Shown here in pieces: positions 1,387 through 62,778 of a stretch of DNA of 64,000 nt. Made by a program: the position numbers and the translations under genes. Below the pieces are notes generated by a model. It did not search any database. It worked only from the letters and a program-made list of their open reading frames with translations, and was not told the origin of the DNA. Source of the DNA: Siphonodentalium dalli (taxonomy: Eukaryota; Mollusca; Scaphopoda; Gadilida; Siphonodentaliidae); assembly GCA_032622095.1 (NCBI GenBank), contig CP136062.1, positions 156,296,875 through 156,360,874 on the forward strand, in the 5' to 3' direction. Each line of letters starts with the position of its first letter. Within the stretch, counting starts at the first letter, position 1.

Positions 1387-1595
1387 AAGGGAAAAAAGTC
1401 GCCCTGTCATACAACTGCAAATTTGTGGAGACATCGACACTCTTCAATCACAACGTGGATCAGTTGTTGGTCGGTATTCATAAACAAAACTCTCTGCACA
1501 ACAACGCGCGAACAGGCTCAGGGAGGAATATGAAGGCACTTTTACCACGCATTTTCAAGAGTAAAGCATCATGTGAAAATTTGATGAAATTATAA
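1387..1595 (+). CDS. RGK-family small GTPase, last coding exon (gene A, partial)
   Basis: This exon follows a pyrimidine tract ending in TTACAG. Read in phase 1 it encodes about 69 residues before TAA. It starts with an (E)GKK stretch, then NCKFVETS (the G5 region, family consensus DCKFIETSA), then NHNVDQLLVGI. It ends with a basic segment and KSKASCENLMKL, matching the conserved RGK carboxyl-terminal motif. RGK proteins lack a CAAX prenylation box, and so does this one. The exon encoding G4 should lie just left of the window, because copy B has its G4 exon 34 bases before the position matching base 1. Against the copy B exon there are five substitutions: three change residues (His to Asn, Glu to Gln, Lys to Asn, all away from consensus in A) and two are silent. 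Family assignment is strong, but whether A is functional is unknown. Confidence 0.9.
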
Positions 1596-1942
1596 TTTAT
1601 CAGTCACCTGTTCAGCAACATTCAGAGTATGATATGATGTTAATATAACAATTGTTATATATTTATCATCGGTTATGTGAGATCATGTAGCACGAGTGCT
1701 GTGTGGTAATGTGTTATCTTTGTCAGTGTTGAGAAGGAAACATGTATACCATTTTAAACAGAGAATACTTGAAGCTAATAACCATATCCTGTCATCCATT
1801 TGTAACTCAGATATATTCAAATCGAAATTATTCAAAATCATGGAATCATATGTTGTACACTTAGCTGCATATTTATATTACATAAATGTAGCATATAACG
1901 TATGATTATTTTGTAAGTTATGGATAATTATGTATGGTCTGA

Positions 1943-1948
1943 AATAAA
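1943..1948 (+). promoter_or_regulatory. Poly(A) signal AATAAA, RGK gene A
   Basis: A canonical AATAAA lies about 350 bases after the stop codon of the RGK last exon. It is conserved at 17813-17818 in copy B. It probably ends the 3' UTR; the region between stop and signal has no conserved protein. Confidence 0.55.
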
Positions 1949-1965
1949 ACTATATATGCATGTAT

Positions 1966-2100
1966 AGCATTATCATCATCACCATTATCACCGTTGTCAT
2001 CATCATGGTCATTATCGTAATCATCATAACTGCTATCTGTTATCACAATCAACATCATCATCGCCGGCATCATCATATTCATCGCCGTCGTCTTAAGTAA
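1966..2100. repeat. Imperfect ATC trinucleotide repeat, copy A
   Basis: An interrupted run of ATC/GTC/ATT triplets lies just beyond the poly(A) signal. Copy B carries the same array at about 17837-17968. Confidence 0.85.
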
Positions 2101-2286
2101 TCACCACCAATTGTTTGGATTATATGAGCATTGGTGGTTAACTATTTCGGTCGTAAATATATCTACACGCGCTTCCATTCATCAAACGACGTGATTTCCG
2201 TTACTAATTCCTTATTGATCATTCGGCAAAATCCGAGAACGGTGGGAAATTACCTCTCATTCGTAAGCGGCCAACGGGGTCGAACA

Positions 2287-2346
2287 CAATTAGGATCAGC
2301 TTTCAAAAAGTGGCCTGAAAATGAGTTACCTCTCTGGTCTGTCAGG
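2287..2346 (+). repeat. Left inverted repeat flanking satellite, copy A
   Basis: This 60-bp stretch contains TTTCAAAAAGTGGCCTGAAA and is the imperfect inverse of 5259-5317 on the far side of the satellite array. The pairing includes TTTCAAAAAGTG, ATGAGTT and GGTCTG blocks. Confidence 0.7.
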
Positions 2347-2369
2347 AAAATTTCGGGACCGTATGAACT

Positions 2370-5110
2370 TTAACCAGGACGGGCGTGTTGGGACCCTAAA
2401 GGGACGGGACAGTAATTCTAGCTGGACCCGGGCCGTGGCTATTAATCTAACCGCGGGCGGGACAAATCGGTACCCTAACCCTAACCGGGGTGGGACGCGA
2501 CTCTAACATTAACTGGGACGGGACCTTAGGCCTAACCCTAACCGGGACGGCAGCTTAACCCTAACACTGAACAGGACGACGCGGTATCCTAACCCTGACC
2601 GGACGGGACCATAAGTTGTATGTGGGTGTTCGGAACGGATTGTAACTTAACCATAACCGGACCAGGGCCCTACACCGGAGCGAAACGGTGCGGGACCCCA
2701 ACCTTAACCCAGACTGGACGTGACCGTAATTCTAGCTGGACCGTGACTCATAGTTCTAACCGCGGACGGAACAATTCGAGATCATAACCGGGGCGGGACG
2801 AACCCCTAACTCTAACCGGGACGGGAAATAAAGCATAAACATAACCCTAACGGCAGCTTAACTCTAAGACTGAACAGGCCTAGTCCGGCCGGACGGGACC
2901 ATAACCTTTATGTTGGGGTAGGAGGGACTGTAACTTTAACCCTAACCGGATCGGGGCCCTATCCAGGAACTGAACGGGGCGGGGCCCTAAGCCAGGCAGG
3001 ACGGGACCTTGACCCAACCCTGACGGGACATTAACACTGGCTACACCAATAACCCTAAACCTAAACGGCACTGGAAGGCTCTGAACGGGAATTTAACCCT
3101 AGCCCTAACCGAGACGGGACCATAACGCTAACCGTTAGGGGAACCCAACACTAACCGGGACGGGACCCCTGACCCTAACCTATTCGGGACGGGAGCTTAA
3201 CCCTAACTCTAACCGGGACGGTTGGAACCTAACACTAACAATACTCGTAACCTGATGGTGGATCCGGATGGTCCGTACATCGGACGGGACGAGCCGGGAC
3301 CATAACAAGGAAGAGACGGGACCACAGGACGGTACCCTAACTCTAACCGGAACCCTAACCCTACCCCGGGGCGGAAGTCAGGGGAAGGACGTTAATACAA
3401 ATCATAAGTTCATAACCATAATGGGGACGGGACCAGTCGGGGCAATAACAATAACTGAAACGAGGCCTTAAGCCTAACCACAAAGGGGACGGGACCTAAA
3501 CCATAATACGGACCAGAACGGGAGGTTAACATAACTACAACCGGGACTGGTGCTAAATCCTAACCCGTACCGGACGGGCGGGATTCTAATTTGGATGTGG
3601 TGGTTCGGAACGGTACTGTAACTTTAAACATACTCATGTCGGGGGTCTAACACGGAAATGAAGTGGGCGGGACCCAAACACTAACAGGACGGGACCTATG
3701 CCCCAACCGTGACCGTGACGGGACCCCAACCCTTGGCACAACTATAACCCAAACCCTAAAGGGACTGGACGGTTCGGGCGGGAACTTAAACACAACACAA
3801 CTAACCTGGACAGGGCTCTATCACTAACCGGTACGGAGCCTTAAACATAACCTTGGCGGGAGTTTAACCCTATCTGGGACGGGAAGTTACTACAATAATA
3901 ACTTACAACAATCGTTACCTGGCGGGTAATCCCGACCGCGGACGGGACGAGTCGGGACCCTAACCAGGACGGCACCCTAACCTTTAACTGAACGTAACTG
4001 GTTGGAACGGGACCTTAACACTAACCGTAACCATAAAACGGGACGCGGCCAGGGGACCTGACGTTTACACTAGCCATAACCGGGACTGTGCGGCTCTGGA
4101 CCGGAATATCACAATAACCATAACTGGGACGGGACCAGTCGGGACCCTAACACTAACCGGGACTGGACCTTTGCCCGATTCCTAACTCGAACTTGGACGG
4201 GACCTTGAGCCTAACCCATAACCGGGAAGGGACGGGACCACAACAAGGGCGGTATCCTAACAGTAGCCAGAACTGGACGGATTGGAACGGGACCTTAACC
4301 CTAACACATTACCCTAAACCGTGACCAGTGTCATGGGACGTTAACACTAACCATAACGACAACCCTAACCGGTACTGGACGGCTCTGAACGTGAAATTCA
4401 CCGTGGCGGGATGGGACTGGACCTTAAGCCTAACCTAATTGTGAGTGGACCCTGACCCGAACCGAGACAGGGTCTTAGCCTTAGCTCTAACCGAGAGGGG
4501 ACCGTAACACTATCCGAGATTTGACGGGAGCGTAAACCGAGCCCTAACTCTAAGCGGGACTCGACATTAAAACTAACTCTAGCTAATCCGGGGAGGAAGG
4601 GACCTAACCCTAATCTGGACGGAACCGTAACCCTAATTATAACAGGTACGGGACTCAAACCCTAACAGGACGGGATGTAAACCTTAACCCTAACTGGTAC
4701 TGGACCTTAAACCTAACTCTAAGCCGAACCGGGTATGGACGGGCCCTTAACCATCACTCTAACCGGGACGGGACCTTTAGGTTCCCCTACCCAACCGCGG
4801 CGGGTGTGTGCCGGCCCTCAATCCTACTCTAATCCGAATGCCAGCGGGAGGACATTAAACCTATCTCTAATCCGAATCGGGGCGGGATGGGACCTTAACA
4901 CTACCCATAACCGGGACGGGACTGGACCCACACACTGACCGTAATCGGCACGGGACGATAAGGGCCGTGACCGGACCCTAGTATAACAGGGATAGATCGA
5001 GATGGGACCTTTACACTATAGCACTAATCCTAAACGGGGCAGGACGGGGCTGGATCCTAACCCTAACTGGGACGGGACCCTAACCATAACCGGGATGGGA
5101 CAGCGGGGGC
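2370..5110. repeat. Degenerate CCCTAA/GGGACGGGAC satellite, copy A
   Basis: About 2.7 kb of highly degenerate short tandem repeats alternate CCCTAACC-type and GGGACGGGAC-type blocks. CCCTAA is the animal telomere hexamer on one strand, but runs of more than two exact hexamers are rare, so this is a telomere-like interstitial satellite and not a telomere. The open frames within it encode low-complexity peptides and are not genes. Relative to copy B, A lacks about 380 bp (B 20273-20655), with a short shared ACC at the break. Confidence 0.9.
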
Positions 5111-5258
5111 GGGTAGTGACGGTAACGGGGCGCGCGGGCGAAGCAAATCGTAGTTGTGTGGTTGGGGCGTCACTGTACGTCTGTTTTCGACCAATTGGCA
5201 CTGATGTTCTAATTTTTTCGGTCCAAATTATCGCCCCATGCACTTTCACTTCAACGTT

Positions 5259-5317
5259 CCAGACCGAGCATAGCGGCAACTCATATTCGGACACTTTTTG
5301 AAACTCGACCCAAATTT
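5259..5317 (-). repeat. Right inverted repeat flanking satellite, copy A
   Basis: Inverse partner of 2287-2346. Its reverse complement contains TTTCAAAAAGTGTCCGAATA followed by a GAGTTGCCGCT-like block. The roughly 150 bp just inside it (5110-5258) are non-repetitive and well conserved between copies. Confidence 0.7.
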
Positions 5318-5329
5318 ACTTCGGCTAAA

Positions 5330-6838
5330 TCGAATTATATCCAGCTATTATTTACATATACTTCTGAACACCTGATATATACATATTTTTTTATTTTGAA
5401 CTATCAACGTTAGCGTTGTTAAAGTAATGAGAGCGGATCTCAAGTTACAAAGTACACATACTAATAGCGCTGTCAATGGCTACCGTTTAAAACCTGTTTA
5501 CCCTGGAAGCCTATGACATTGTAGAGGTCGGTTGTGTATTATGACATCAAATTGAACATATCCATACTGCACATGGCGTCACTTTATATTGCAACCAGTA
5601 TTTTCGCATACGTCTTGAATTAACGAACAGCAGAGGAATATCTGCAGGTTGCTTTCATGTTTTCATTTCAATTCAATATATTGGGACGTTTGTACATCCG
5701 CAATCCGATAATTGACTAAGAGATGATTATAATTTTGCGTAGAAGTACAATTTAGTTTTATCTTATCGAATATGCCATTTCATTTTATGGCATTGTCCGA
5801 TTTATTTGATTTATATTCGTGAATAATCCTGTGTCTTTCAATTGTTCTTGGCTGACTCGCGATAGCTATTCACGTGATTAGATTCATATATCTGTATGTG
5901 GCTCATGTTTTCGTTTTTACATTGTGTATCATGGTTTTGCATGCTTCCATATCTACTGGTTAATTTATTTTGGCTTTTATGTGTTAATTTCATTTCATTC
6001 GAGTCTTTGGTAACGTACATAAATTGCCCAAAACCCGATATTTGGCCAAGCGATTATTCAACTTTTGCATAGAAGTAAACTTTATTTTTTGAAAATATCA
6101 TTTTATCATGACATTCACTGATTTGTATGATTGTTATTCATGCGCTCTGAATAATCCTGTCACTTTCAATTGTTGATTCGTGATCTTGAATCACGTGATC
6201 ATATTCATATATTTGGCGATTGCTCAAGCCGATGTTCTATGTTTTCACGTTTACTACACATAGCGATTACGCAGACCAATGTTCTACATGTACGTTGTAA
6301 TGTTTATTACATTACGTTGATTGTGTTCATGGTATACATTGTCCCGAATGTCCTTAACCAGACACCACATGTAAGCGAAAAATAAATTTGTCGGATCGGA
6401 ATAATGGACTTTGTCTCACTTACTCCCTATGCATGGAAATTGCTTTAATGGGCATCAAACCAGTTACATTACATAACTACGGTCTTTACTTATTGTATAC
6501 AAATTAATAGAAGTTCAGTAAAAATAACTATAATTTGATTAAGTCTCTTTAATCCGTTTTATCGAAGAAAATATATCGTCAAATGTATAGCGTATTGGGG
6601 TACTATTACTTGTACAACCACTTATCTCATATCTCCTAGATTCGTTTCGTTTGCAACTGATGGTAAATTGTGTTCTTAGTATTTGGTTGAAAGGTAACTG
6701 ATATGTATACTGTTGATACGTGCGGTTCCAGCTGGAATATACGCACCCCTGATCAAGACTTTATGGTCCTGCTAATGTGATGTGATGCTGGTGGTCTCTG
6801 CTGAATTTCTATAACGCGATTGGGGCGAACTGATGCTG
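5330..6838. other. Duplicated AT-rich spacer without recognised gene
   Basis: AT-rich sequence is conserved with copy B (about 21590-23099). Two stretches near 5690-5850 and 6045-6170 resemble each other (similar wording around TTGCATAGAAGT and ATCATTTTAT), suggesting an old internal duplication. No coding signal or RNA gene is seen. Confidence 0.5.
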
Positions 6839-6842
6839 TTAA

Positions 6843-7336
6843 AGGCACGTGAGGCCTTAGTTGTCGAAAATATTCATATTTGTTCCAATCACCGTAAACA
6901 GAAAAACATTAAAACGCATACAGTTTCGTTCATATATACCATGACCATCGCGTAAACAGCATGTTATCATACAGATTTACTATATTTTACCTAAGCAAGA
7001 GCAAGATTGTGTTACAGAAGACAGCACAGTGCTGCTGGCTAATCACACACAAATGGCATAAACGCTCTTTATTCGTTCCATTTCAGGAATTCACCAACAA
7101 AGAACGCTCTTTATTTTTAACATCATAATATAAACAAACACCAGAAAAGTAACTTTTTATGCTTTTGTTTACATAACAATGGTCAAAGATATGACAATAA
7201 CATACTGTTTATGCGATATTTCTTATTTGTATACGGACAAAGTCTGTCTACATTTTGTTGTTCTTTCTGTTTGTGGCGTTATTTGACGGGTGGAAATATT
7301 TTCACAGGATACCCACCGCCAAGGCCAACCGTACCT
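6843..7336 (+). mobile_element. TTAA-site MITE (only in copy A)
   Basis: The 494-bp element is flanked by TTAA (6839-6842 and 7337-7340). Its ends are AGGCACGTGAGGCCTT and the inverse of AGGTACGGTTGGCCTT. Copy B has the empty site with a single TTAA at 23100-23103 between the same flanks. A second member with better-matched ends lies at 34930-35421. TTAA targets are typical of piggyBac and Kolobok superfamilies, and no transposase is present. The superfamily is not decided. Confidence 0.9.
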
Positions 7337-8425
7337 TTAAGACAAAGTACCGTTATTTTTCAAATGTTGTCATTTTCTGGGTATATGGCTAATACGAGCG
7401 GTTTGGAATAAAACCAGTGCATGTTTGGAACATAACAAAACATAGACATTTTGAATAAATATAATAATGGCTGCTCTGGTGTTTGCAAAACTATGTGAAT
7501 TGCCATCTTTCTATAGTCGATTTGCCACAACTAACACAACCAATATAAACATATCTCGCAATATATATATGTGTTGGAATGTTTGATACACACAATGGCT
7601 TTTCATATTGCAGATTTTCCGAACGCCGCACAAATGACAATTTCAGAACAAATAACGTACATTTTCTTAACAGCGTAAATTTACCATGACAGCATCTTAG
7701 CAATTCAACAGGGCCCACCAGCATCGCATCACATTGACGGGTCCAGTTGACCAGTTGTGAAACTGTAATAGGATGAAACTTTAATGGCCTGACTGTATTT
7801 GTGTTCGAGGGTACGCCAATACATGGGATTCGTTAATCCAATAATTTATTATTGCGACAGTTCTTTAATCTTAGTGTTCGATATTCCGAGAGTTCGATAC
7901 TTAAGAATTTACAGCGACGTGGACATGAATAAAAGTCGGGCCTCATCAACATAAAATAAATGTTCCCTGAGGCATCACCACGCGCAAAAGAATCCCACCG
8001 GTATCAAATTTAAGCACCATACACACATTTGGGAACAGACAATTAACGCACCCGTATATCTAATTGCGTAAATGATACACAAATATCCAAATGTTCGTCT
8101 TTGTCGTGTCTTATACATGTATGTTACAACATATGTGACTTATTGGTGCTCTATATAAAGATTCTCGTACATGCACGTGCGTGAGCTACACATACACGTG
8201 TAATAATTTAACGCGATGCTGGAACGGATGTCAGCTTCTGTATGTGAGGAAACTACATGATATTCTGAAAGCTAGCGCGACCTACATGTATATTTACATA
8301 TTCGCGACTTTCGGACTATCGAATAATCGTAATATCTAACTATCTGACAAACGAACTGCCCTAATTTTTTCGTCGTCTGACAAATATACAACATTCATAT
8401 TTGAGAATATGTGGGACAGTTGAAG

Positions 8426-9494
8426 CACAGGTCCCCAGATCAAAAATTTACCCCACCCTCAATAATACTTAATCCCATAGAAATGTATTCAACTTGGCGG
8501 GGCCTAATTTTTTAAATTTTTTTCAGTCAAAAAACAAGTTAAAAATAGAAGAATTTTTTTTTTTGTTACATAAAGGCCTCATATATACGTAGAAATGTAT
8601 TTTCTTACTCTTCAATTTCATGTATCCCGCGTAAAAAATGGTTAAAAAAACTCCTGTTATGAGCACAGGTCTGACAGAAACCGGCTGTTGAAATCCCTCG
8701 TTCGAGATGGTGTCCGCTCAACTCGGTCAAAAAGCCGGATTTTTACACTGACTAGTGCTTCAAAAACGCCCTAACCGGTAAGTAGAAAAATATAGTATAC
8801 ATCATTAGAAGCGGAATCACGGCATCATATCTCTCGTATTTATTGAAAAATCAGTTTCATAAAACCGGAAGAAAATTTAAATTGTCCAAAACAAGCCATT
8901 TTGTAAGTAAGCTGAAATGACGTAATACTAATTGGCATTGGCCCAATATAAATCAAATATATAACGAAGAAGTAATGTACATACGATCTAAATGTTTACG
9001 AAGTTATATTCTTGTCCATGTGTATGTTTTCAAATCGGCATTCGTGTTAATTCAATCTTTATCTATTCTTTTAATTTTTTATAAATACATATTGTGTTGC
9101 ATAGAACTATAAATAGTACTCACGGCAAACTCGCAAAAAATGGCTGGTTTTTGGAAAATTTTAATTTGCTTCCGAATTCATGAATCTGATTTTTTCAATA
9201 AATACGAGAGATACGATGCCGTGATGTGGCCAGATTGGTTTGGGTGTGTCAGTAAATAATTCCGCTTCTAATGATGTATAATATATATATTGTACTTACC
9301 GTTGAGAGTTTTTGAAGCGCAAGTCGGTGTAAAAATCCGACTCGCTGACCCAGTTTAGCGGACACCATCTAGAACGAGTGATTTTAGCAGTCGGTTTGCG
9401 CCAGACCTGTGCTCATATCCGGAGTTTTTCTGAACCAATTTTACACGGCATACTTAAAATTGAAGAGTAATAAAATATCTTTCTACATATATAT
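8426..9494. mobile_element. Foldback element, copy A (right end truncated)
   Basis: Two long arms (about 8426-8900 and 9130-9494) are imperfect inverted copies separated by a spacer. Paired blocks include CTCCTGTTATGAGCACAGGTCT-type sequence, the AATAAATACGAGAGATA region and the AAGTCGGTGTAAAAATCCG region. Copy B keeps the full right end to 26707 with a near-perfect 8-bp target-site duplication. In A the last 150-200 bp are missing, so the A/B homology ends inside this element. Confidence 0.8.
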
Positions 9495-9999
9495 TTAAGA
9501 TATTACGGAAGTAGTGGCACGGGTTACTGTTTATTTAGCAAGTGTCTAAACTCGAGGGAAATGTGCGGCCCAAGCAGCCCAACATATTTATTGATTTATT
9601 TTAATTGTGATTTTGCGAAATAGTGAATTGGCATATACTAATAAATGACGCTTCCGCGTGCATCGTCTTGGTCGCTGCGGGACTTTCAACTCTTCCAAAA
9701 ACCAGGATCTTTGTTTGTAATGTATGTCAGTAAGTGCCTATTCGGGGTACCAGTTACAACAACAACAAGAACAACATCCAGCCTATGATTCATGGAACAA
9801 TGTTATTAAAAAGTTGATGTACATGATACAATCTAAACGCACAAATACGAAAAAAAAGTTGTTTAAATGAGAACTTTACAAGAAATATTGTTGTCGCTCT
9901 GAAACTTCGAAACTATGAAATAACTGGATACACAATTAATTATCAAACAAGAGTATTTCATGTGTCACGTCTCGTTCCGAAAATATCATTATACACACC

Positions 10000-10390
10000 A
10001 TCTGATAACGCAGTTTATTCAGGGACGGGTGTGTAAATAAGGGGCACAGTTATTTGAAAGATGACTGAAAGTTGAACCCACAACACTTACACAATGTACG
10101 TATGCCTGGGTTGGGCACAGGCTAGAATTTCATATTTGACACATAAATCATTTTAATGTGGGCCGGTATCAAGGTTAAAAATGGTCACCACTCGGATTTC
10201 GAAAACAAATTTATTTCATGCAGATGACAAATTTTGATAAGTGAGACCAGTATATGTAGCCACTGTTTCGCAGACATCGCTGCTACCTGATACGGGTGTG
10301 GTAAAAGTAAAATGAAACATTATTTTCAAAACTAACAAAACATGCTCTAATTATAACCAACCTTTTCTCAATACACACACCACATCCCTT
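10000..10390. repeat. Diverged direct repeat, unit 1
   Basis: This resembles 11335-11830 in the same orientation. Shared features include GGGTGTAAA, CCTGGTT/CCTGGGTT near GGCACAGG, TTTCAAAAACAAATTTGTTT-like text, a GCCACTGTTT(C/T)GCAGA block, and a CTCAATACAC end. Identity looks moderate with indels. This is probably an old repeat family or local duplication. Confidence 0.6.
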
Positions 10391-10904
10391 TTACCCCTAC
10401 TGAACATTTGAAACCAGACTGTCACCTTAATGGACGTGTCATTTCGTTTGTTTGCGATGGAGACCATATCTACACATGCTATGTATGATAATATGTATAA
10501 TGATCGTTGACACGCCATGTATATTTTCAACCGCAATAAGCAATATTGGTTGCGGTTTAACGCCACGTGGATATTTTCCCCCATCATATTTTGTTTGAAA
10601 AGGTCTAAAAGGCTATTACTATAAATTATTTAAGCTCACACTTCTTGAATGAAATTTTAATGAAATTTCAGTCGTCCACTGTACCTTGCAGTGTGAATGT
10701 TAGCATTTCAGTTAAGATTAAAAGAGAATGATACCTTGAAGAAGTACATATCATTTGAAGAAACATCAATGACGACATATACACATTGATGTGGACAAAG
10801 GCGACATATGCCAATGTGTACACAAGCAGAGTGGTATATATAACATGAAATGTTCCTTCTAAGTCGGTAGATTTGCCGAAACATTGTTAGTGAGAATATT
10901 GTCA

Positions 10905-11225
10905 AATTGATGCGATGCCAAACACTCCTGCACGGTGATAAAATAAATTGGAGAATAATCTTTCTCACAGTATTTATAATTAACAGATAATATATCAAAA
11001 CACATCATCATTATTATATATTAAATAAATGCAGTGAATATGGCGAAATAGTTTTCATTAGTTTATCGCCGATTGTTGCGTCCAGAATCGAGAAGTAAAT
11101 ATCTACATTTGAGCGAAGTTCAGATATTTTCTATGGAGTACTCACTATTTGCTTGACATTTTCGGCGTTGTTAGTAGAATGACACATTCACCAAATTGGC
11201 ATAGCACAGGATACTAATGGTGATA
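10905..11225 (+). repeat. Dispersed repeat, copy near 11 kb
   Basis: About 320 bp match 37305-37630 in the same orientation. Shared blocks include GGTGATAAAATA, TGGAGAATAATCTT, ATCGCCGAT, TTTTCTATGGAGTA, and GTTAGTAGAATG. No coding potential is shared. The second copy lies within the large inverted-repeat transposon at 34271-47203. Confidence 0.7.
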
Positions 11226-11334
11226 TTTGCTGGTCTTGCAATGACTTGCATGTGACATTCCAGTTTCTGCAGGCGTGGGTGCAGACATAAGACAGGGTGC
11301 ATATCGAATCAACTTAACAAATAATAATTGTGAT

Positions 11335-11830
11335 ATTTAGAGAAGGGACACTCCAGTTTCAGCAGGGCCGGGTGTAAAATGATGGGATCATCAAACCAGT
11401 GCACACTAACTATAATATGAACCCTCAACACAATGCCTGGTTAGAGCACAGGTTTATGCTTTAAGATTTGGTTGCAGCATTATTATTTTAATGGGGATAT
11501 AAATAGACAGAGTGGCATAGACCCCTTGATATTATGTGACACAAACGACATTTTCGAGCATAACTGGAAGAACGCTATTTCCTAACTCCAACATCAAAAC
11601 TGTTCTAAATACTCACCATTGGGATTTTCAAAAACAAATTTGTTTTAATGCAGATGATAAATGTAGGTGGTAAAACGGCATCAGCGTCGGTGGCCACTGT
11701 TTTGCAGAAATCGGTACTACTGCGGGTGGGAGGCAACGTAGTCTGAAACAATATTTTTTCAAAACTCAAAGAAACCCGATAAAGCTCACAAATTAATAAC
11801 TAACATTCTCTCAATACACGTGGCATATCG
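11335..11830. repeat. Diverged direct repeat, unit 2
   Basis: Partner of 10000-10390. It is longer because of inserted sequence in its middle (about 11490-11620). No gene is visible. Confidence 0.6.
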
Positions 11831-13185
11831 AAGGTGCCAGCAAACACTGGTACACTATTTTAAGAAATTTATCCCTATTGATAATTGGAAAATGTTGAGT
11901 GTCGCACCATTATCTAAATGAAAATCGTTCAAGGATTTGTAGAAATTGGCTGGAATCCTGAAAACATATTATAGTTTATTGATATTTAAAGTGACTTAAA
12001 TGCGAGGGTTTATTACGCTGTGATATTTTTGTCTTTTTTGGAGATAATGTTTTAGTTTTGCCACTTTCCTTCAATATCACGTTAAAATATGTCTCTTGTG
12101 CCTAAAACGACAGTAATCCGTAACCTCACTAAGGGCGTCTCATTCTGTACAAGCTGGCGGTGTATGTCTTGGTCAAAAGCCATGACTAGTGCTTGATCAA
12201 TCAATTGAACATAATGCTCGATTATTCCTGGATGATAATTTACAAGATGCTGATGTTGAGTGGGGGTTCATCGGTCTTTGTCTTGAATACATTTGTTCTG
12301 GATATTCCTCTCGTTATAACTATTAAAGTCGGCATTTCTACGTTGGCCTTAAGTTTTGTTATATGATGAGTCAGTCGTTTCCTATGATTGCCAATACTGG
12401 AAATGACACTGAGACACTGTTTTTTTGTATATATGTAAATGTTTAGACAATATGTAGTCGGTACGGGTGGGGCATGGAAAGTGTTTTGGACGTGTGCATA
12501 TTATATCCACTGCCCCAGCTGCGTGGCGCTATTTGGTTATATTTAAAAAATGCCCGTTGCGAGGTGTGAATTGGGAGTCTGGCGGTGTAGAACCTTCACA
12601 AATGGCGGGGCAACATGTGTTGTATATACTGATTTGTAATTGGTGGAATAAATTAATCTATTTGCCCGCATGCTGAAAAAACAAATTCTTTAAATACAAA
12701 TTTGTTGAAAATAATCAAGGATTTTGATTTGAGTTGCCTGCTCCTATAAATTTTTATCTAGACTAATGGCATTGAAATATTATATTGTACGAAATTTACC
12801 AACACTGACTGATATGCCAAGCACCAGAACAACATGTATGGCATTGTTGATTAGACACCATCAATTGAACAGGGATTAAACAAAGATGGTGGAAAAAGAG
12901 TCATGAGCTATTTTAGAATCTGGATATCCAGCATTTCTCTACGATGTACAACTCAACTTGAGCAACCTGGGTATATGCTGCTCAACTTTAAACAACTAGG
13001 ATATCTACCGTATACTATATGCACCGTTTGGTGGAAATCGACTCGTCCGACGACAAGTAAAACCAATTTAATTAAACAGTGGTGGTGTAGAAAGTGGGGG
13101 TGACTGAACATAGCTGCTGTTATGACAAATTCATATTAACATACGAACATGTCACTGAATATAGTTGGGTGTCACGACCTTAGGA

Positions 13186-13493
13186 AAACATCAAATTTGA
13201 ATCTCTGAAAGATGACAATAACTCTAACCATAACTCTAACCGGAACGCGACCTCAATCCTAACCCGAACCGGTATGGGACGGTACCCTAACACTAACGAG
13301 GACGGAACCGTACCATAACACAAACCGAGACGGGACCATAAACTGATCCGTAACTCTAACAGGGATACGACGGGACCTTAAGCATAATCCTAACCGGGAC
13401 GGGACCTTCGTCCGGGGCGGAACAATCGGAACCGAACCATAACTCTAACCATAACTCGGGGCAAACATCAAATTTGAATCCCTGGAAGATGAC
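13186..13493. repeat. Satellite fragment between 31-bp direct repeats
   Basis: About 246 bp of the same CCCTAA/GGGACGGGAC-type satellite (13217-13462) lie between near-identical 31-bp direct repeats at 13186-13216 and 13463-13493 (AAACATCAAATTTGAATC core, two mismatches). The repeats would be one copy if the satellite were removed, so this looks like an insertion with duplication of its flank, independent of the two large arrays. Confidence 0.8.
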
Positions 13494-14294
13494 GTGGGGC
13501 AGAAACAAAATACTGATTTCCAAACATGACAATAAAGAGACAGTTTCAACATATGTTTATATTACATGAGTTTAATCCGTAACATGATACGGACATATAC
13601 GTTCAGAAGAGATATCCGTCATGGCTACTGGTTGAGGTGGTTACTTCAAATAAACGAGATAAATCACTACCATGACTAATCTACGATATGAGCATCACAT
13701 TGAATCCTGATAATAAAGGAATATGAGAACGGTAACATGGGAATATGGACATCGAGGTGTTATCATGTAATCAGGTAAGATTTAATCTAGTAATTAATGA
13801 GGACCTATGTTGACATTTCTGCTCAAATTTTATTTCAATGAATTATGTTTAAGGAGACTAATTACCACCACCCAACTACCACATACAAGTTCGAACTGAT
13901 TTATGATAATATATTCCACGCACAGGAACAATTATTCAAAACATTACTATTTATGGTTTTGCGCAATCATTCCGAAACTCGTTCTGTATGTGACTAGTTC
14001 GTATCTATAGTAAAATATATAAGTTTACTGAACCAATTCGATAGTGTTTCGTGTAATGTTGTCGTTGGTAGCTATATAATATTATACAGATACATACCAT
14101 TGTTGGAAGGTTATACTATACAGTTCTAGTTTGATGTAAGCAGATCACTCAACAAAAATATTTCCATGATGTTGAGTTGTTAACTTATTACACACTATAA
14201 CAATAATTTAAGTTCGCTGGAAAATCAGGTTACTCAATGAGGAAGCCTACAACTGTAAGAGTTTACGCTTACCTGGTTGTTCTCCCTTTTACAG

Positions 14295-14478
14295 AATATG
14301 GTTCCAACTCATGACTGCGAAATCTACGTAGTTGTCTACTCGCGAGGAGACCGGAAGTCCTTTCGCCACGCAATTGACATCCTGTTCCATTTGCGCCGAG
14401 TGAGCAAAGTCACCAAGCCCATCATTTTGGTGGAGAACAAGTGCGATCTTGTCCGGACAAAGGTCATCGCCGCCGGAG
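14295..14478 (+). CDS. RGK-family small GTPase, internal exon with G4 motif (gene B)
   Basis: The exon is bounded by CTCCCTTTTACAG and GTGAGT, both strong splice sites. It is open for 61 codons plus one base (phase 0 in, phase 1 out). The protein has EIYVVVYS (the beta-strand before G4; RGK proteins show AYVIVYS-type sequence), a DRKSF segment, LRRVSK, then PIILVENKCDL, where NKCD is the G4 guanine-specificity motif, and LVRTKVI. The phase-1 exit fits exactly with the last exon at 17255, which completes a Glu codon to give the family's EGK junction. The usual VGNKxDL is VENKCDL here. No preceding RGK exon is visible in the window. Confidence 0.9.
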
Positions 14479-14531
14479 GTGAGTACCGTGTCTTTGCCAA
14501 ACACTGAATTACTAGTAGTTTCCGAATGAAA

Positions 14532-14581
14532 TGTTCAGATAAGTTCTACAACCGGCCAGTGTAGAACCTATTTTCTGAACA
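14532..14581. repeat. Intronic hairpin, copy B
   Basis: Same hairpin as 21-70, differing by one base in the right arm. It begins 54 bases after the splice donor of the G4 exon. Confidence 0.7.
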
Positions 14582-14688
14582 TTATATATAGGTATGACTC
14601 ATCTGCACTTGTATTATATGTTCGTCTGTCGTCTGCTAATAATATGTCATTCCAATATATACTGTTATACCTGATGGGAGAAACTATT

Positions 14689-16039
14689 GGGTGTGTCTTT
14701 TTACCGGATTCCGGATTTCGATCCGGATTTAGGTGTCTTTTTACCGGATTTCGACCCGGATTCGGGTATGAATTTCATGCTTGTTTTATCACACATTTAA
14801 CCCATTAAAAGCCGTTTCTGACACGCGGAAACTGGTTAGGAGGTGAGATTAAACCAATATAGGGCTGTCGTGCTCATTCAACCCGATTAATCGTATTTAA
14901 AGGTACATATCGTGCCCGGATCAGCATACTTCTTATTTTTTCATATAGACACGGCGGTTGGATTGATTTTACGTGATCATGGCGGCATTTAAGGGAACAC
15001 ACCATGTCCGGATCCGAATTAATTATCTCGTAATTATCTCGTAATCTCCGGTTTTTTTCTCTCTTTTTTTTCCATATAAATTATCGTCTTTTTGATATAT
15101 TAAATGTCACGTGGAACAAAGTTATAAGTTGATTTTGAGACGTTATACTAGGCTGTTGGATTGATTTCACGGAATGATTATCGCATTTAAAGGTACACAC
15201 CATGTGCGGAACCGAATTAATTTCCACGTATTTACTGATAATATTTAAAGGTACAAATTATTCCCGGATCCGGATTTTTCTCCTTATAAAGTAATGCTTA
15301 TTTAATAAAATACACGACTAAACATCAACATCTATAACCTGGTTCCACGCGACTCAGCTGACATTTAATGTATTAAATAGGCATTAATTTATGAGAAATA
15401 AATCCGGATCCGGGCATAATCTGTACCTTTAATTATTATCAGTAAATACGTGGAAATTAATTCGGTTCCGCACATGGTGTGTACCTTTAAATGCGATAAT
15501 CATTCCGCGAAATCAATCCAACAGCCTAGTTTAACGTCTCAAAATCAACTTATAACTTTGTTCCACGTGACATTTAATATATCAAAAAGACGATAATTTA
15601 TATGGAAAAAAAGAGAGAGAAAAAAACCGGATCCGGAAATGATATCTACCTTTAAATATGATCAATAATTACGAGATAATTAATTCGGATCCGGACATGG
15701 TGTGTTCCCTTAAATGCCATCATGATCACGTAAAATCAATCCAACCGCCGTGTCTATATGAAAAAATAAGAAGTATGCTCATTCGGGCACGATATGTACC
15801 TTTAAATACGATTAATCGGGTTGAATGAGCACGACAGCCCTATATTGGTTTAATCTCACCTCCAAACCAGTTTCCGCGTGTCAGAAACGGCTTTTAATGG
15901 GTTAAATGTGAGATAAAACAATCATGAAATTCATACCCGAATCCGGGTCGAAATCCGGTAAAAAGACACCTAAATCCGGGTCGAAATCCGTGTCGAAATC
16001 CGGGATCCGGAATCCGGAATCCGGTAAAAAGACACACCC
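14689..16039. mobile_element. Foldback Mutator-like element with 9-bp target duplication
   Basis: The 1351-bp insertion is flanked by GAAACTATT (14680-14688 and 16040-16048), present once at the equivalent site in copy A near 170. Its ends are exact inverse copies (GGGTGTGTCTTTTTACCGG). Almost the whole element is one inverted repeat: arms of roughly 14689-15315 and 15378-16039 around a loop of about 60 bp. Repeated CCGGATCCGG and AAAGGTAC motifs run along the arms. Long inverted repeats with 9-bp duplications are typical of Mutator-like and foldback elements. No transposase is encoded. It sits in the last intron of RGK gene B. Confidence 0.92.
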
Positions 16040-17463: not shown

Positions 17464-17812
17464 TTTATCAGTCACCTGTTCAGCAACATTCAGAGTATGA
17501 AATGATGTTATTATAACAATTGTTATATATTTATCATCGGTTATGTGAGATCGTGTAGCACGAGTGCTGTGTGGTAATGTGTTATCTTTGTCAGTGCTGA
17601 GAAGGAAACATGTATACCATTTTAAACAGAGAATACTTGAAGCTAATAACCATATCCTGTCATCCATTTGTAACTCAGATATATTCAAATCGAAATTATT
17701 CAAAATCATGGAATCATATGTTGTCCACTTAGCTGCATATATATATATAACATAAACGTAGCATATAACGTATGATTATTTTGTAAGTTATGGATAATTA
17801 TGTATAGTCTGA

Positions 17813-17818
17813 AATAAA
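17813..17818 (+). promoter_or_regulatory. Poly(A) signal AATAAA, RGK gene B
   Basis: Matches the signal at 1943-1948 and lies about 350 bases after the gene B stop codon. Confidence 0.55.
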
Positions 17819-17836
17819 ACTATATATCCATGTAGA

Positions 17837-47528: not shown

Positions 47529-50500
47529 ATGATATCGATGACTACGGATAAAATCCGATTGAGTGAGATTGAGAGAGATGATTCATATAATTTTGTTGCA
47601 AAATACGCTACATTTGATAATGACGATATCGATCGCGTATGCAGTCCATTTGACCTAACAGACCACTCTTGTAGTTACCATGCCCCATCAGACCTAAAAT
47701 ATAACCTCGATGTATCAAAATGTACTTTATCCCTACTAGGCCTCAATTGTCGTAGCCTTAACGCAAATTGGGACTCGTTTGTTGCATTAATGACTCAGAT
47801 CCAGCAACCAGGAAAAATGTTTGATATATTGGCTCTCACCGAAATTTTCAAAATACGGGAAAATTATAGTCTACCGGGTTACCATAAACTAGAGTATAGG
47901 ACACGGCCCGAATTCGATGACGGCAGAGGGGGTATAGGATTATTTGTCAAGAATACCCATTCTTATAAAATACGTGATGACTTATCAATATTTATCCCAC
48001 ATGTTATCGAGACATTATTCATCGAAGTAAATGTAAGTTCTAAATCAAGTCACATAGTAGGTACTATTTATAGGCCAAATTCAGCCCCTCTGGCAGACCT
48101 GGACACTTTTGTCTCTGAACTTACCACAATAATGGAATCAATTAAGAAAACAAACAAGCGTGCTTATCTGATTGGTGATTATAATATTGATCTTCTCGGC
48201 TTTGAAACTCACACAAAAACGAGTAATTTCATTGACACTATTTTCGAAAACGGGTTCATGCCGGTAATTACTAAACCAACAAGAGTAACCGACTATTCAG
48301 CTACACTAATAGACAATATTTTTACAAATAGTGTGGTGAAAAAAAATAAATCAGGAATTATACTTACCGATGTTTCGGATCATTTCGCCACATTTTATGC
48401 GGAAATGTTCACAAATCGCGATGATACCGAAACTATAACTCAGCAGAAACCGATCAGAATATTCAGCGAAAACAATATCTCAACCTTTAAAAGTATTCTA
48501 CAAACCGACTCATTTGAGAGTGTATATAACAGTTCATCGGCCAATCTAGCATATGATAACTTCATGAAGGTATATCTCGATGCATATAACAAAGCGTTCC
48601 CATTAGTCGTCTCCAAACCATCAAAGAAATACGTCAAGAAACAACCATGGATGACGGCAGGTCTCCTAAATTCCTCTCTACATAAAAATAAACTATACGT
48701 AAAAAAATTGAAAAACCCAACGGATTTTAATTCTAAAAATTACAAGGAATACTGCAAATTATTCAATACGATGAAAAGAAAAAGCAAAAATTATTACTAC
48801 ACTGATGTGTTACAAGCAAATAAATTCAACAAGAGACAAACGTGGGCGATATTGAAAGATGCATTGAATTTGACCAACAATAGACCCAAAATTCCATCGA
48901 AATTACGTCACGGAAACTGCGATATATCAAATCAGACGGATATTGCCAAATCATTCAATGACTATTTCTCCCTAATCGGATATAAAACAAGCACCGAAGT
49001 TCCAGTTAAACCTGGCCATGACTTCTCACAGTACCTAAAAGAAACTCACGCTGATAATTTCTTCATTCGCCCAACCGACATGGACGAAATAGTATCAACC
49101 TGTTCATTATTACTTGGAAAAGGAAGCACCGATGTAAATGATATATCAACCAAACTAATGAAAAAAACAATATCCGAAACTGCAAGCGCGCTAACGTATA
49201 TATTCAATATGTCATTTGAAGAAGGAAAGTTTCCCACAAACATGAAGGTTGCAAAAGTTATACCCGTACATAAAGGAGGATCGCACAACTTGATTGAAAA
49301 CTACAGGCCGATAAGTATACCCTTTGCTACACCTCTTACACTCTGTTGTAGAAAATAATGATAAGCCAACGAAAGATTCAACACTTGCGATTTTTATAGA
49401 CTTATCAAAAGCATTCGACACCATCAATCATGATCTATTACTTAGAAAACTTGAATACTACGGTATTAGGGGGGTTTCTAACAACTGGTTCAAAAGCTAT
49501 TTAAATGAACGGCAACAGTACGTAGAAATAATGGGTGAAAAATCAAATATACAAAACATTTTATGTGGTGTACCTCAGGGATCTATACTCGGACCCATGC
49601 TCTTTTTACTATATGTTAATGACATGCCCAACTGTACGTCACTCAACATGTTGTCATTCGCGGATGACACAACTCTATATATTTCTGGCAATGATGGTAA
49701 TACCATACAAAAAGCAGTGAACATCGAGTTAGAAAAATTATCAACTTGGTGCTGCTGTAACAGACTTTCGATCAACACATCAAAAAGCAAATATATGCTA
49801 CTTCACCCACCAATGAATGACAATAAGTGGTCGCGATTGAAGGTAAAATTAAACAATAAGCAACTCATTAGAGTTGGTAATAGGTGTCACGAAACTTCTT
49901 TAAAATTCCTGGGCATTTACATAGATGAAAACCTTACTTTTAAAACTCATATCTCAATGCTTAACAAACGAATAAAACATGCATTGTTTGCTCTAAACAA
50001 GGTCAAACGTATTCTTCCCAAAACTGCAAAAAAAACTCTCTACTACGCATTAATTCACAGCTATCTAACATACGGACTTCCGGTATGGGGTCATTCGGTT
50101 GCTGCAAATTCAATGACAACTCTCCAAAAAAGATCAATTCGCATATTATGCAACAAAAATTATAGAAGTCATACAGAACCGTTATTTAAAAAAGAAAAAA
50201 TATTGAAGTTTAGCGACCTCTATCGTATGCACTGTGCCCAATTTATGTATGACTGGACAAAACTTGTACTACCCAGATCATTTTCCACTTGCTTTGAATA
50301 CTCTCGTGGAATAACTACGAGACAAGCCAAAAACATTAGAGTAATAAAACCGAGAATAAAATTTACGGCATACCTCCCAAAACACTCATTCCCAGATATA
50401 TGGAATTCAATCAATGCACAAATTAGAAATTCAAAGAACAGATTCATATTTAAAAGATGTTTAATAAAAAATATGTTGTCAAAATATGCTGAAGTTATTA

Positions 50501-50547
50501 ACTGTGGAGACGCGTATTGTTTTGATTGTAACAACACGTTAACATAG
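47529..50547 (+). pseudogene. Non-LTR retrotransposon ORF2 (endonuclease plus reverse transcriptase), frameshifted
   Basis: The first frame (47529-49358, 609 codons) has an AP-like endonuclease: NCRSLN, ALTE with the catalytic Glu, GGIGLFVKN, TIYRPN, GDYNIDLL, LIDNIFTN, and SDHFATF. It then reads into the start of the reverse transcriptase at NYRPISI. The second frame (49324-50547, +1 relative) holds the rest of the RT: FIDLSKAFDTINHDLL (motif A), GVPQGSILGPMLF (motif B), FADDTTLY (motif C), and LKFLGIYID. Catalytic Asp residues are intact. Roughly 40-50 residues between NYRPIS and the LLHLLHS segment are missing at about 49315-49330, so an internal deletion caused the frame change. Domains fit the Jockey/CR1/L2 group. 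No ORF1 is visible upstream. Confidence 0.93.
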
Positions 50548-56369: not shown

Positions 56370-58020
56370 CAGCCTCTCGGTAGCTCGCCATAATGAGACA
56401 GGCGTTTACAGTATAGTATTGAAACATTTAAACCACGAAGACGAAATTTATGGCAAAACACACACGAAAAACAACACACAACTAGACACCAGAAACAAAA
56501 TACAGCAGACGGCAGAAATGTAATCTGAAAAACTGTGAGCGACGTGGCTGATTGATTGGACAGGGTCAACTCAACCACCCGTCTTGAAGAGATGTAGGAC
56601 CAAAGAGGACCATGAGCTAAGCCGTTACCACAGGTCGATGTCTCACTTGAGACGGCTGCCCTAGTATCCCCCAGAACTCCTGCTCCACATATCAAGGGAT
56701 GCACCCCTCGGCAAAAGTGGGCCACTTTAGGGGATTCTAACACCTGGCAGTGGGACAGTAAACCTATTCTACCCGGGCCCACACGGGGAAAGATTTCTTT
56801 ATTATGATCAATTGGCAGCAAGCATTAGAAAAACAGTGGTATATATGGAGACAAGTAAGTGTTGATCGAGTTCGCATGGTGAATATCGATGCACTCCCAA
56901 ATCACCCGAATAGGTTAAAGTGAAATGGGTTTTGTATCAGATGCTGAAATGCGTCTACGATTAGGTTAACGTGTCGGATTTCGATAGCTGTTCAACTTAA
57001 TTATAACAAGGCAAGTTTGAAAGTCACATGTGATATTAAAGACACGTCATGGATAGGTGTCTGAAATATCAGAGCTCATGGAAATATGTATGATATGTCA
57101 CTGATATGGACAGTAATGTCACCCCAAGAGCCTCGGGTTGCATTCCGTTCTCGATCGGGCGATACATATCCGCGTTGCTCTCAAGCACCGGCGATAACTG
57201 CATACTGTACTTGCATATTTGCCCAAACACGTCTGGTGTTGCCATCGCTTCCATCGATCACACCTACGCGACTATAGATATAAAGATCCTTATTTGACAT
57301 TGCTATGTGGATTATGCATGGCGGCATGTTAATCGGCGTCATTACTGTGGCATCACTGTAAACAATAATTATTCCTCCAATACCCATCTTATAACCAAGA
57401 GTACACAAGAAATTTACAAAGCATAGTGAATTGTTTGATGATAACATAAGAGAGGATCGCATATCAGGTCTAAGGTTTTGAGTCCTCTCTTAAGTGTTCA
57501 GTCTTTTGGAACCAAGAGCGTATTGGTGAGAAGATTTAATTGCTCTCTTAAGTTTCACAATTAGTGTTTTCCTTTAAATTATATATATATAATGTTCGAA
57601 CTTGTGTCCCTGGTATGCAGTCTTGAGTCCTCTCTTAAGTGTTCAGTCTTTTGGAACCAAGAGCGTATTGGTGAGAAGATTTAATTGCTCTCTTAAGTTT
57701 CACAATTAGTGTTTTCCTTTAAATTATATATATATAATGTTCGAACTTGTGTCCCTGGTATGCAGTCAGCAACAAAACATGCTAAACAGATGGGTGAGGT
57801 ACATGTGGTATTGGAATCCGGTGTATGATTTACAGCTGAAATGCGGGCATATAACGATATGTCAGTACATGTATATTAATAACCTTTATATATTTTCGGC
57901 TTAGACAACGCGTTCGTATTATGTATGTTAGCTGAAATGCAGAATATTAACTTATCAGTACAAGGTTCCACCCCGTTTTTCACAACAAAGTACCAAATTG
58001 TGTACACATGTGGATTGTCT
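56370..58020 (+). repeat. Dispersed 1.6-kb repeat, copy 2
   Basis: Collinear partner of 31600-33125. A 150-residue - strand frame at 56369-56821 is open here but broken in copy 1, so I do not call it a gene. A - strand frame at 57254-57069 is also interrupted in copy 1. Confidence 0.85.
57478..57767 (+). repeat. Recent 145-bp tandem duplication
   Basis: 57478-57622 and 57623-57767 appear identical, from TTGAGTCCTCTCTTAAG to TGGTATGCAGTC. The homologous place in copy 1 (about 32750-32935) has one unit, so the duplication is young. Confidence 0.92.
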
Positions 58021-59600: not shown

Positions 59601-59604
59601 GTGG

Positions 59605-59990
59605 AATACATTATGGATATTCAATGTGAGTCATCCGAACTTGCCTTGAGGGCTGATTGAAATGCTACGCGGATGAGTCTTTATTCGTCTCCATGGTATA
59701 CTATGGACTTCTGTCGTACATCTCCATCAACCTTGTATAAAATGTTCTCAACGCCATGCTATAGGGAGTCTAATGGTTTAGTTTAACCATACGTCAGTCG
59801 ATGTCATGGTTGGGGACCAAGGAAGGAACATGATACAAACTTCTTTGTCATCGATTGCCACCAGACGAATACATAATGGAATTTAGATTGTACATGGCAT
59901 TTAGGGTATGATTTAAAGTAGGCAAAGTGCACCGTCGAAGTGAATGATGGACCCGAAGCTCTTTATAATGTGTTTTCACTGGGGCCCGAA
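59605..59990 (+). repeat. Dispersed repeat, partner of 29800
   Basis: Inverse copy of 29800-30190. Its first 70 bp also match 58685-58760 directly. Confidence 0.75.
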
Positions 59991-59999
59991 CCATTCAAT

Positions 60000-62340
60000 T
60001 GTATAAAGGTCACAACCTCACTATTACAGAACCAAATAAGTCCAATATGAACATATGTGGATATTTAAGTCAGACATGAACCTATTTGTACGAGAATATG
60101 CTGGAAATGTATATGTAGGCGTCTATATGATATACTGCACTACATGGTGTACTTTAAAGTCACATGGCTGTATGCGCTCCGAAATACACCTAATAATATT
60201 CGCTGTAGATTTTTCCCGGTATCGAAATAGGTCGAGATATACTTCCATTTTACTGCAGTATAGTCCCAGACAGACGCATTGAACTCATACAAAATATAAC
60301 TTTGAAGACGGTGTTTGGGTGCTAAACAAACAACAGCCATGTCACGGCATGGCACATTAAAGATAATTCTGTGTTACGCTATTCCTGATATTGTAGAAAT
60401 AAAGAGCGTTTGTTTCACTTCTGTGCGAAAAATTGAAAACAGCTGGAAGATGTATGTGACCATGGCAATTATTTATCAGAGCATATATATGATGCCGGAA
60501 TATAAATAGTTCGTGTATCTGTCAACCTATATTATACCTCCTACTAAATTAGGCAGACAAATATTTGGAAGCTCGAATGAGCCATGTCCGTTTAACATAC
60601 TAAACACATGGTGCGTTCTAAATCAGGAATCGAAGTCGGATAAACCATATTGTAATACGACCTTGCCTAAACCTACACACAAGGCTCGTCCTGATTGGTC
60701 AGTATCCTGTATTCCCATGCAGACGCGGACCGTCCTTTTGTAGTACAATTCTAGATATTTTGAATTGTACCACAAACAATGTGGTACAATCAGTGAAATG
60801 CTGCCAACGCCTCGAAATTTCAGAAGTCAAACCATACGGCCATTGGCTAATGTCATGCTAAAGACTGAAGAAAGAGACATATAATGACTAACTACTGTAT
60901 TATACTGATTTTTAGTTAAGTTAGAACAAAAATAAGTCTTAAATGAATTTGTTTGCCACAAAAACAATGGAAAGGGTTCGTCGTTCAAAAGTGACGCTAT
61001 GTTTCACTATCAGGTCTAAGAGAAGAATTGTTTGGTGGAAAATCATACCACGCAGAGCTATAAACTGGGCTATTATATAACAGTTTGAACATATGTCACT
61101 ACAATTTCGACCAAAACATACAGTCGAATTACAAAAGAAATAAATACACTGCGCATCGACGTGTATAGTATAATTTGACCACATAAACTGATTGTACTAC
61201 TCCGCTTCGCGTCGTCCTACAATCAGTTTCTTTGTGGCCGATGCGCAGTGTATTTATGTCTTAAATAGATAAGACCAACATTTCTATAAAGTGTCGCACA
61301 ATTAACTAAACTTATATAGTCATCTCCGTGATATGATGTATTCGTTTTAAAGTATAGTTTTCATACTCATAAGAGTCGCCGATAGATAAAGGAATCGCTA
61401 TATGGCTAGTTAGGTGTTTCAAAGTGGGCAGATAGGCGCCGTTGGGTATGAGGAGCAAGAAAACAACAGCATTTATTATAGGCATCAACATGATACTAAT
61501 CGTGCGGCTTGAAGATAAAGATTGTCTGAATTGGGGTGGAGTTGATGCATTAAATTGATAAAGACGGAGTTACCGATATCAAAATGTTTGGTTAGTTTTT
61601 AAAGATCTACAGTCCGATTTAACACCAGATGACCGAATTATCTGAGATAATGACCAGTTTACCGGGACAATGAAAAAGGAAAACTGAATTCAATTATCAT
61701 CTGTTCTATGGCACGAGCGTCGCGACAATTGACAAAGGCCTACACCAGGTTTACGCGTATACAATATCATAATTGGAAATGCTGTGTACTATATTCCATG
61801 TTTGGGCAACGGAATCATAGCTTCTCTTTATCAGAGACACTCTTTAACAGAGATCGCTGGAATATTGCTCAGTCGACAGAAATTGAAGTCGACATCTGAC
61901 CATCGAAACCTCCCACTAATGGACCCAATCATCTTTATTTTGTGAATCAACGTTATTGCTGAGTACTCAGTTGTGATACAATCTGTAAGATTACTGTGGT
62001 AATAATCTTCTATAACCGATGTCTATTACACGTTCATTTTGTGTTTACTTCTTAACACGGGTCGAATTAATGGTGTTAAACTAACGACAACAATGTGATT
62101 CAGGGTATATGATCCATGTATAAGATTGACGTTGTATTATGCCAATTTGTGGAAAACATTAACTACCTTGACCAAATATATTCCTATCAAATGTCCCCAT
62201 AAAATGTTCACGTCACTTTAACCTGGACAACGCCGGGTCACCATGCTAGTACTATATATAGCATGTAATAAAATGCGTAGGGGCTGTGAGGAACACACTA
62301 CTCACGTGACTATTTCTGGCAAGCAACGTTAGAATGTGAT
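60000..62340. other. Upstream region of RGK gene C
   Basis: No gene or strong repeat apart from the hairpin at 61141-61256 and small inverted GTGGTACAAT blocks near 60740-60790. It may hold regulatory sequence for gene C. Confidence 0.4.
61141..61256. repeat. Nested inverted repeat (two-stem hairpin)
   Basis: The outer arms TAAATACACTGCGCATCG (61141-61158) and its exact inverse (61239-61256) enclose a second exact pair, AAACTGATTGTA (61185-61196) and TACAATCAGTTT (61218-61229). Confidence 0.9.
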
Positions 62341-62372
62341 TATGTATTATAATTAGATGAGGATTCAGCGTC

Positions 62373-62382
62373 CTATATATAG
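62373..62382 (+). promoter_or_regulatory. Putative TATA box of RGK gene C
   Basis: CTATATATAG lies 114 bases before the ATG of the first RGK exon. A start of transcription about 30 bases on would fall near CACTCATAAC (62401-62410). TCAGTT at 62426-62431 is an initiator-like alternative. Confidence 0.45.
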
Positions 62383-62486
62383 AGTCGTAGATAGGGACAC
62401 CACTCATAACGCATTTGCAACTCATCAGTTAATAAACCATCGCTGCACATTTATATCGCACCTTCGATATCCTGTAATTTGTCAAA

Positions 62487-62778
62487 ATGTCTCGTCAAAA
62501 TTATAAAATTAATGCTGAGGATCGTGACATGTACTCCTGTCGTTCGTTCAGCTTCACACCAAAAGGACTGATCAACAAGGGGGATTCGATGCAATCTCTG
62601 AGTGACGTAAGCCTAACATCAAGTAGTGGCTGTTCTGACTTCTTTTACGCAGACGAATCGGTGCTAGACAAAGAATGCTGCCGTGTAGCTATCGTAGGTT
62701 CACATGGCGTTGGGAAGACGGCGCTGATACGACAATTTATGACGTCAGATTACGTTGGTGATGTTGACGATGTGGAAG
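62487..62778 (+). CDS. RGK-family small GTPase, first coding exon (gene C, partial)
   Basis: ATG in a good context (AAA before it) opens 97 codons plus one base before a GTTGGT donor. RSFSFTPKGLINKGDS near residues 17-32 is the conserved RGK amino-terminal motif, followed by a Ser-rich linker. CCRVAIVGSHGVGKTALIRQ (about residues 68-87) is the G1 P-loop, and QFMTSDYV follows as in invertebrate RGKs. The phase-1 exit leaves G for the next codon. The next exon (G2/G3 region) is beyond the window. It is too far away and in the wrong order (5' exon downstream) to belong to genes A or B, so it starts a third gene. The P-loop is intact. Confidence 0.93.

Follow-up and report, generated by a model that had tools for sequence, protein, structure and literature searches.

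How many RGK-type small-GTPase genes are held by the 64,000-nucleotide stretch of Siphonodentalium dalli contig CP136062.1 analyzed here (the window), and do they form a cluster? The initial annotation had read four exons, all on the + strand, as parts of three RGK genes in tandem. More than one RGK-like protein per genome is in itself unsurprising, because several per invertebrate have already been published; the accessible part of PMC4081519 gives three potential ones in Drosophila and multiple putative ones in Aplysia, Crassostrea and Capitella. That part of the paper makes no mention of RGK clustering, and no RGK gene cluster is described in the literature found, as judged by titles and abstract openings, a scope that leaves room for clusters elsewhere. 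The arrangement that we consider probable for this locus is a different one: the 3′ half of one RGK gene has been duplicated locally, a separate Ras-like first exon lies downstream, and a cluster of three genes is not proven.

The exons that carry the RGK assignment lie on the + strand with AG/GT borders and belong to two copies, A and B, of a duplicated tract. The G4 exon of copy B (14295-14478) encodes NKCDLVR and runs from phase 0 to phase 1; it is preceded immediately by TTTTACAG and followed immediately by GTGAGT. The last exon of copy A (1387-1595), placed behind an AG acceptor and a pyrimidine tract, encodes the G5 motif (ETS), the beta6-alpha5 region, the C-7 tail SCENLMKL and a stop, and the last exon of copy B (17255-17463) follows a T-rich tract and ACAG. 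A phase 1 start makes both last exons compatible with the end of the G4 exon, and splicing the two copy B exons in phase yields 130 residues corresponding to the 3′ half of an RGK protein. When the window was searched with Gem by tblastn, the three 3′ exons were matched at E values of 1.2e-7 to 9.8e-7 (39.7-42.4 bits), compared with a top score of 24.6 bits in 50 Markov-shuffled windows. Against PDB, the joined exons of copy B matched Gem (E = 3.9e-19) and Rad (6.7e-19); Gem, Rad, Rem1 and Rem2 made up the top 10 (3.9e-19 to 5.3e-13), and the first non-RGK protein followed at 5.4e-9, among 60 sequences listed at E ≤ 1e-6. The copy A last exon enters this comparison through the 66 of 69 residues that it has in common with copy B. 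Pfam Ras scored 52.9 bits on the joined exons, above its cut-off of 21.6. Because the PDB ranking, the Pfam Ras score and tblastn scores far above those of shuffled windows all agree, we regard the 3′ exons as real and RGK-like, an identity that is well supported, and on these exons the initial annotation was right.

The residues encoded by the 3′ exons were also compared with those described for RGK proteins. Both copies end in SCENLMKL followed by a stop, giving Cys at -7, Ser at -8, Glu at -6, Met at -3 and Leu at -4 and -1, so that the C-7 signature (Cys at -7, Ser/Thr at -8), in the form given in the accessible part of PMC4081519, is present in A and B. According to the same source, an Arg after NKxDL, a His after ETS and a Val are linked to Cav-beta binding. 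The Arg follows NKCDLV in copy B, and the His lies after ETS in both copies (ETSTLFHHN in B, ETSTLFNHN in A), while the third residue of the Cav-beta face, Val in that list, is replaced by Phe in the present protein. The NKxD exon of copy A lies outside the window, and the Arg was accordingly covered in copy B. The available text of PMC4081519 gives the -6 residue as acidic in protostomes and His in deuterostomes, and adds that the -3 residue tends to be aromatic in protostome RGK proteins; because the -6 residue here is acidic (Glu), the host animal is probably a protostome.

The relationship between the two sets of 3′ exons was revealed by a blastn self-comparison. Positions 1-9494 (copy A, + strand, its left end lying beyond the window) match 14512-26549 (the part of copy B, + strand, that aligns with the window's copy A) head to tail and equally oriented, as segments that are 95.0-98.3% identical, and the homology breaks off sharply at 9494/26549. 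The duplicated tract is about 16 kb long, with the RGK last exon in both copies and the G4 exon seen in B; exon 1387-1595 is the counterpart of 17255-17463, so that two of the three genes proposed initially are the 3′ ends of one duplicated tract. Direct repeats, a common intron with common flanks, and a sharp break, as expected of a tandem duplication, were all observed, the break in view being the right-hand one. The left edge of the window cuts copy A just after the expected position of its G4 exon, which, from the offset between the copies, would lie about 34-217 bases to the left. Should the copies abut, the left end of the duplicated unit would be expected about 6.4 kb from the window, with the P-loop exon farther out. 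A scan for AATAAA gave one match each in 1593-2200 and 17462-18100, providing a candidate polyadenylation signal at 1943-1948 (+ strand) for copy A and its counterpart starting at 17813 for copy B. At the right end of each copy (8426-9494 and 24237-26707) lies a repeat family present in both orientations; the copy B element, related to 8426-8590 and 24237-24350, runs beyond the breakpoint, and its counterpart in copy A breaks off at 9494.

The two copies differ by substitution at 301 of 8957 aligned bases (3.4%), with a local divergence of 1.7-6.3% plus one 300-base bin at 9%; bins past 9300 were excluded as they extend beyond the end of homology. The last exon differs at 5 of 207 bases and its flanks at 55 of 2188 (Fisher p = 1.0), and the five exon changes comprise 2 synonymous and 3 non-synonymous ones (Asn/His, Gln/Glu and Asn/Lys), which leave 3 of 69 residues different. 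The corresponding values, pS 0.046 and pN 0.019, rest on too few changes for a test of selection. With exon and flanks diverging at an equal rate, there is no indication that the exon has been constrained since the two copies separated, but five changes are few.

In addition to substitutions, the copies are set apart by three insertions (1360, 1287 and 498 bp), each of which faces a clean empty site in the opposite copy. The last intron of copy B holds a palindromic insertion of 1360 bp (14689-16048) flanked by 9-bp duplications (GAAACTATT), with termini GGGTGTGTC and an internal inverted repeat of about 1.3 kb (14712-15990) that is 90% self-complementary; judged by its target-site duplication, it may be Mutator-like. 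A second copy B insertion (1287 bp, 24855-26141), with an 8-bp duplication (TTATAAAT) and CAGCGT termini, appears to be of hAT type. The third, of 498 bp, is found in copy A only (6843-7340), is flanked by TTAA duplications suggestive of a piggyBac-type miniature inverted-repeat transposable element, and has a related copy at 34926-35425. A further difference of 384 bp between A and B, at about 4399/20270, falls within sequence where minisatellite-like repeats abound. The two copies are distinct molecules, and a plain assembly stutter of one molecule is ruled out by the copy-specific insertions with their empty sites.

The same differences bear on whether the copies are paralogues or alleles. 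A and B could be two haplotypes of one locus assembled end to end, a heterotype false duplication, in which case there would be one RGK 3′ half and no duplication. A substitution level of 3.4% together with the presence and absence of insertions is compatible with alleles of a highly heterozygous invertebrate, and an exon that differs as much as its flanks also fits this explanation. Allelic copies assembled as paralogues are described in the accessible part of PMC9516828, where gaps between the copies and half read depth are given as marks of false duplication. Against it, there is no run of N at the junction or anywhere else in the window, though a gapless contig can still hold an error. We judge the haplotype explanation a real possibility with less than an even chance. 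The outcome that the initial annotation had itself set against its claim, segmental copies of a single gene or an assembly expansion of one locus, is partly borne out, in that the copies are segmental.

A third question concerns whether copy B has a 5′ half. If the copies abut, the part of copy B upstream of its G4 exon is limited to 9495-14294 at most. The P-loop pattern, both strict and relaxed ([GA]x(3,4)[GA]K[STACN]), gave no match on the + strand of 1593-14294, as against 5 places on the + strand of the whole window (62697 included) for the relaxed form. Shuffled 12.7-kb stretches held 1.68 relaxed P-loops on average and none in 14 of 100; the zero thus shows that the motif is absent, and is in itself not unusual. 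Searches by tblastn with Gem and Rad yielded no additional RGK-like exon above the scores of shuffled sequence, and no G3 exon of copy B was found, an exon whose small size and poor conservation could let it escape notice. Candidates for exon 2 were defined as splice-bounded stretches of 60-180 bases, 3n+2 in length, with at least 12 of 20 pyrimidines before the AG and a donor score of at least 6 of 9; 6 were present in 1593-14290 and none in 62779-64000, and none of the 6 was RGK-like as judged by eye. A P-loop (G1) and a non-DxxG G3 motif in the same gene were therefore not found for copy B, and the 5′ part of copy A lies outside the window. Because no P-loop, no G3 exon and no tblastn match were detected upstream, copy B is an RGK 3′ half with no visible 5′ half and not a shown RGK gene.

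Several points weigh against the probable reading of a locally duplicated 3′ half. Copy A runs out of the window on its left side, so that a duplicated unit lacking the P-loop exon is inferred and not seen; the searches could have overlooked a P-loop that has diverged, or an exon 2 of small size and poor conservation, in 9495-14294; the exon-2 candidates were dismissed by eye only; and, with the two last exons intact, copy B could still have a function. A further proposal has one RGK gene using A and B as alternative 3′ ends, its common 5′ exons lying to the left of the window. Intact acceptors and candidate polyadenylation signals in both copies speak for such an arrangement, as does the missing 5′ half of B, and if the unseen G4 exon of copy A is of the same phase, one exon 2 could be spliced to either end. 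The arrangement is nevertheless putative, and two last exons differing at just 3 of 69 residues would bring little gain; we hold it to be very unlikely.

The P-loop exon (exon C, 62487-62778, + strand) starts 45 kb downstream of the duplicated RGK 3′ half. An ATG at 62487 with an in-frame stop just upstream opens 97 residues that contain RVAIVGSHGVGKTALIRQF, with the P-loop GSHGVGKT at 62697 (its first Gly being residue 71), and the exon ends in phase 1 at a GT donor. These features of the proposed first exon hold. Its RGK label fared less well, for at least 5 of the 50 shuffled windows reached its tblastn score to Gem (23.1 bits), and 1 of the 50 its score to Rad (23.9 bits). Strict P-loops on both strands numbered 4 in the real window, as against 0.88 on average and a maximum of 4 in shuffled windows; 2 of the 4 are on the - strand at matching places in copies A and B. 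The P-loop-like strings GCVSCGKS and GCTSCGKS at 7541 (-) and 23304 (-), in open frames of 113 and 83 codons, are probably chance or repeat.

We therefore weighed whether exon C comes from a Ras-superfamily gene other than RGK. Among the 60 PDB matches listed of 302, the best were EhRabX3 (0.0014), R-Ras2 (0.012) and Ral-A (0.014) and none was an RGK protein, and Pfam Ras gave 18.5 bits, below the 21.6 cut-off. On the other side, beta1 of exon C is preceded by an N-terminal extension of about 64 residues, and the exon lacks a switch-I Thr at the place where Ral carries Pro-Thr. A missing Thr fits an RGK protein, in which G2 is poorly conserved (accessible part of PMC4081519). The long N terminus and the missing switch-I Pro-Thr favour RGK without proving it, and we consider a non-RGK origin rather unlikely; exon C is a plausible Ras-like first exon with a weak RGK label. 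As to the intron phases said to be common to all these exons, they agree at the G4-to-last junction, the sole one checkable in the window, but the phase 1 end of exon C has no direct fit with the phase 0 start of the G4 exon, and a gene of such a layout would consequently require an intermediate exon of 3n+2 bases.

These observations also bear on the claim with which the locus was introduced, namely a clustered expansion of three complete, separately expressed RGK genes. Four exons all on the + strand, both last exons intact, and the multiple RGK-like proteins of Aplysia, Crassostrea and Capitella (PMC4081519, as far as accessible) are in its favour. Opposed to it are the 12.7 kb between the copy A last exon and the copy B G4 exon, in which no P-loop was found for the middle copy, and exon C, which scores as Ras-like with no RGK among its 60 listed PDB matches. 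Three complete genes are very unlikely, and the supposed cluster resolves into the two 3′ ends of the 16-kb tract and a lone P-loop exon.

In the explanation that we favor, a single RGK-type small-GTPase gene would have its 3′ half (G4 plus last exon) present twice, head to tail, within a duplicated tract of about 16 kb that seemingly lacks the P-loop exon. Copy B would then be a 5′-truncated copy, the alternative 3′ end of a gene starting to the left, or a second haplotype, and the P-loop exon 45 kb downstream would open a separate Ras-like gene, possibly RGK. An intact protein would be predicted to bind guanine nucleotide through NKxD and ETS and to hold the Cav-beta subunit by the conserved Arg and His, lowering voltage-gated calcium current, as expressed Drosophila RGK-like proteins do according to the accessible part of PMC4081519. 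A bolder form of the idea, which we hold to be doubtful in the extreme, is that the partial tandem duplication supplies one RGK gene with a pair of 3′ halves (G4 to C-7) that can replace each other, such that a single promoter and P-loop yield two calcium-channel regulators with different residues beside the His that contacts Cav-beta (Asn in A and His in B), with a second RGK-type gene starting 45 kb downstream. The significance of the locus is mainly cautionary, in that gene counts from single exons made three genes of one duplicated 3′ half and a lone P-loop exon. A duplication that is both real and transcribed would illustrate, on a small scale, a change in the dosage or the isoforms of a calcium-channel brake; the available part of PMC4081519 speculates that extra RGK dosage may not be tolerated, with trout noted as a counter-example.

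Elsewhere in the window, Rfam at gathering scores and ARAGORN found nothing. A retrotransposon of the long interspersed element type occupies 47508-50547 (+ strand), with an endonuclease open reading frame (Exo_endo_phos, 7.1e-7) and a reverse transcriptase open reading frame (RVT_1, 8.4e-26) in different frames by Pfam. A Pfam match to a Helitron-like N domain at 28321-28602 (- strand) is below threshold (2e-5, 25.3 bits against a cut-off of 28.9); further - strand open frames adjoin it within 27374-29180, and Pfam scans of three of these gave no match. A tandem array with a 385-bp unit in 5.4 copies lies at 44116-46193. At 57478-57767 a 145-bp unit occurs twice with the copies 100% alike, at the margin of a repeat (56370-57883) that has a related sequence (81-83%) at 31622-33045; the identity of this pair may be very recent or an assembly effect.

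With regard to known systems, 9 stretches of viral contigs fit a peptide pattern and none was confirmed as a relative. Copy B aligns with the vertebrate proteins Gem, Rad, Rem1 and Rem2 across the junction between the G4 and last exons, the sole gap being a one-residue deletion before KPIILV. The present protein has NKCDL where the vertebrate ones have NKSDL, and its tail between alpha5 and C-7 is shorter, vertebrate RGK proteins having a longer one. A further difference is the acidic residue at -6, in place of the His of Gem, Rad and Rem (accessible part of PMC4081519). With the heterotype false duplications described in the available part of PMC9516828, the locus shares near-identical but diverged tracts that neighbour each other on a single sequence, and it differs from them in having no gap between the copies. 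The locus also resembles the protostome RGK-like proteins (Drosophila RGK1-3 and those of Aplysia, Crassostrea and Capitella), with which it shares the motifs G4 and G5, the Cav-beta-face residues Arg and His and, at the C terminus, a Cys (-7), a Ser (-8) and an acidic residue (-6), a likeness drawn from the description in the accessible part of PMC4081519 and not from an alignment. Compared with the same proteins, the locus shows only the 3′ half, has Phe for the Val of the Cav-beta face and Met at -3, and carries just before the conserved His an Asn in copy A and a His in copy B.

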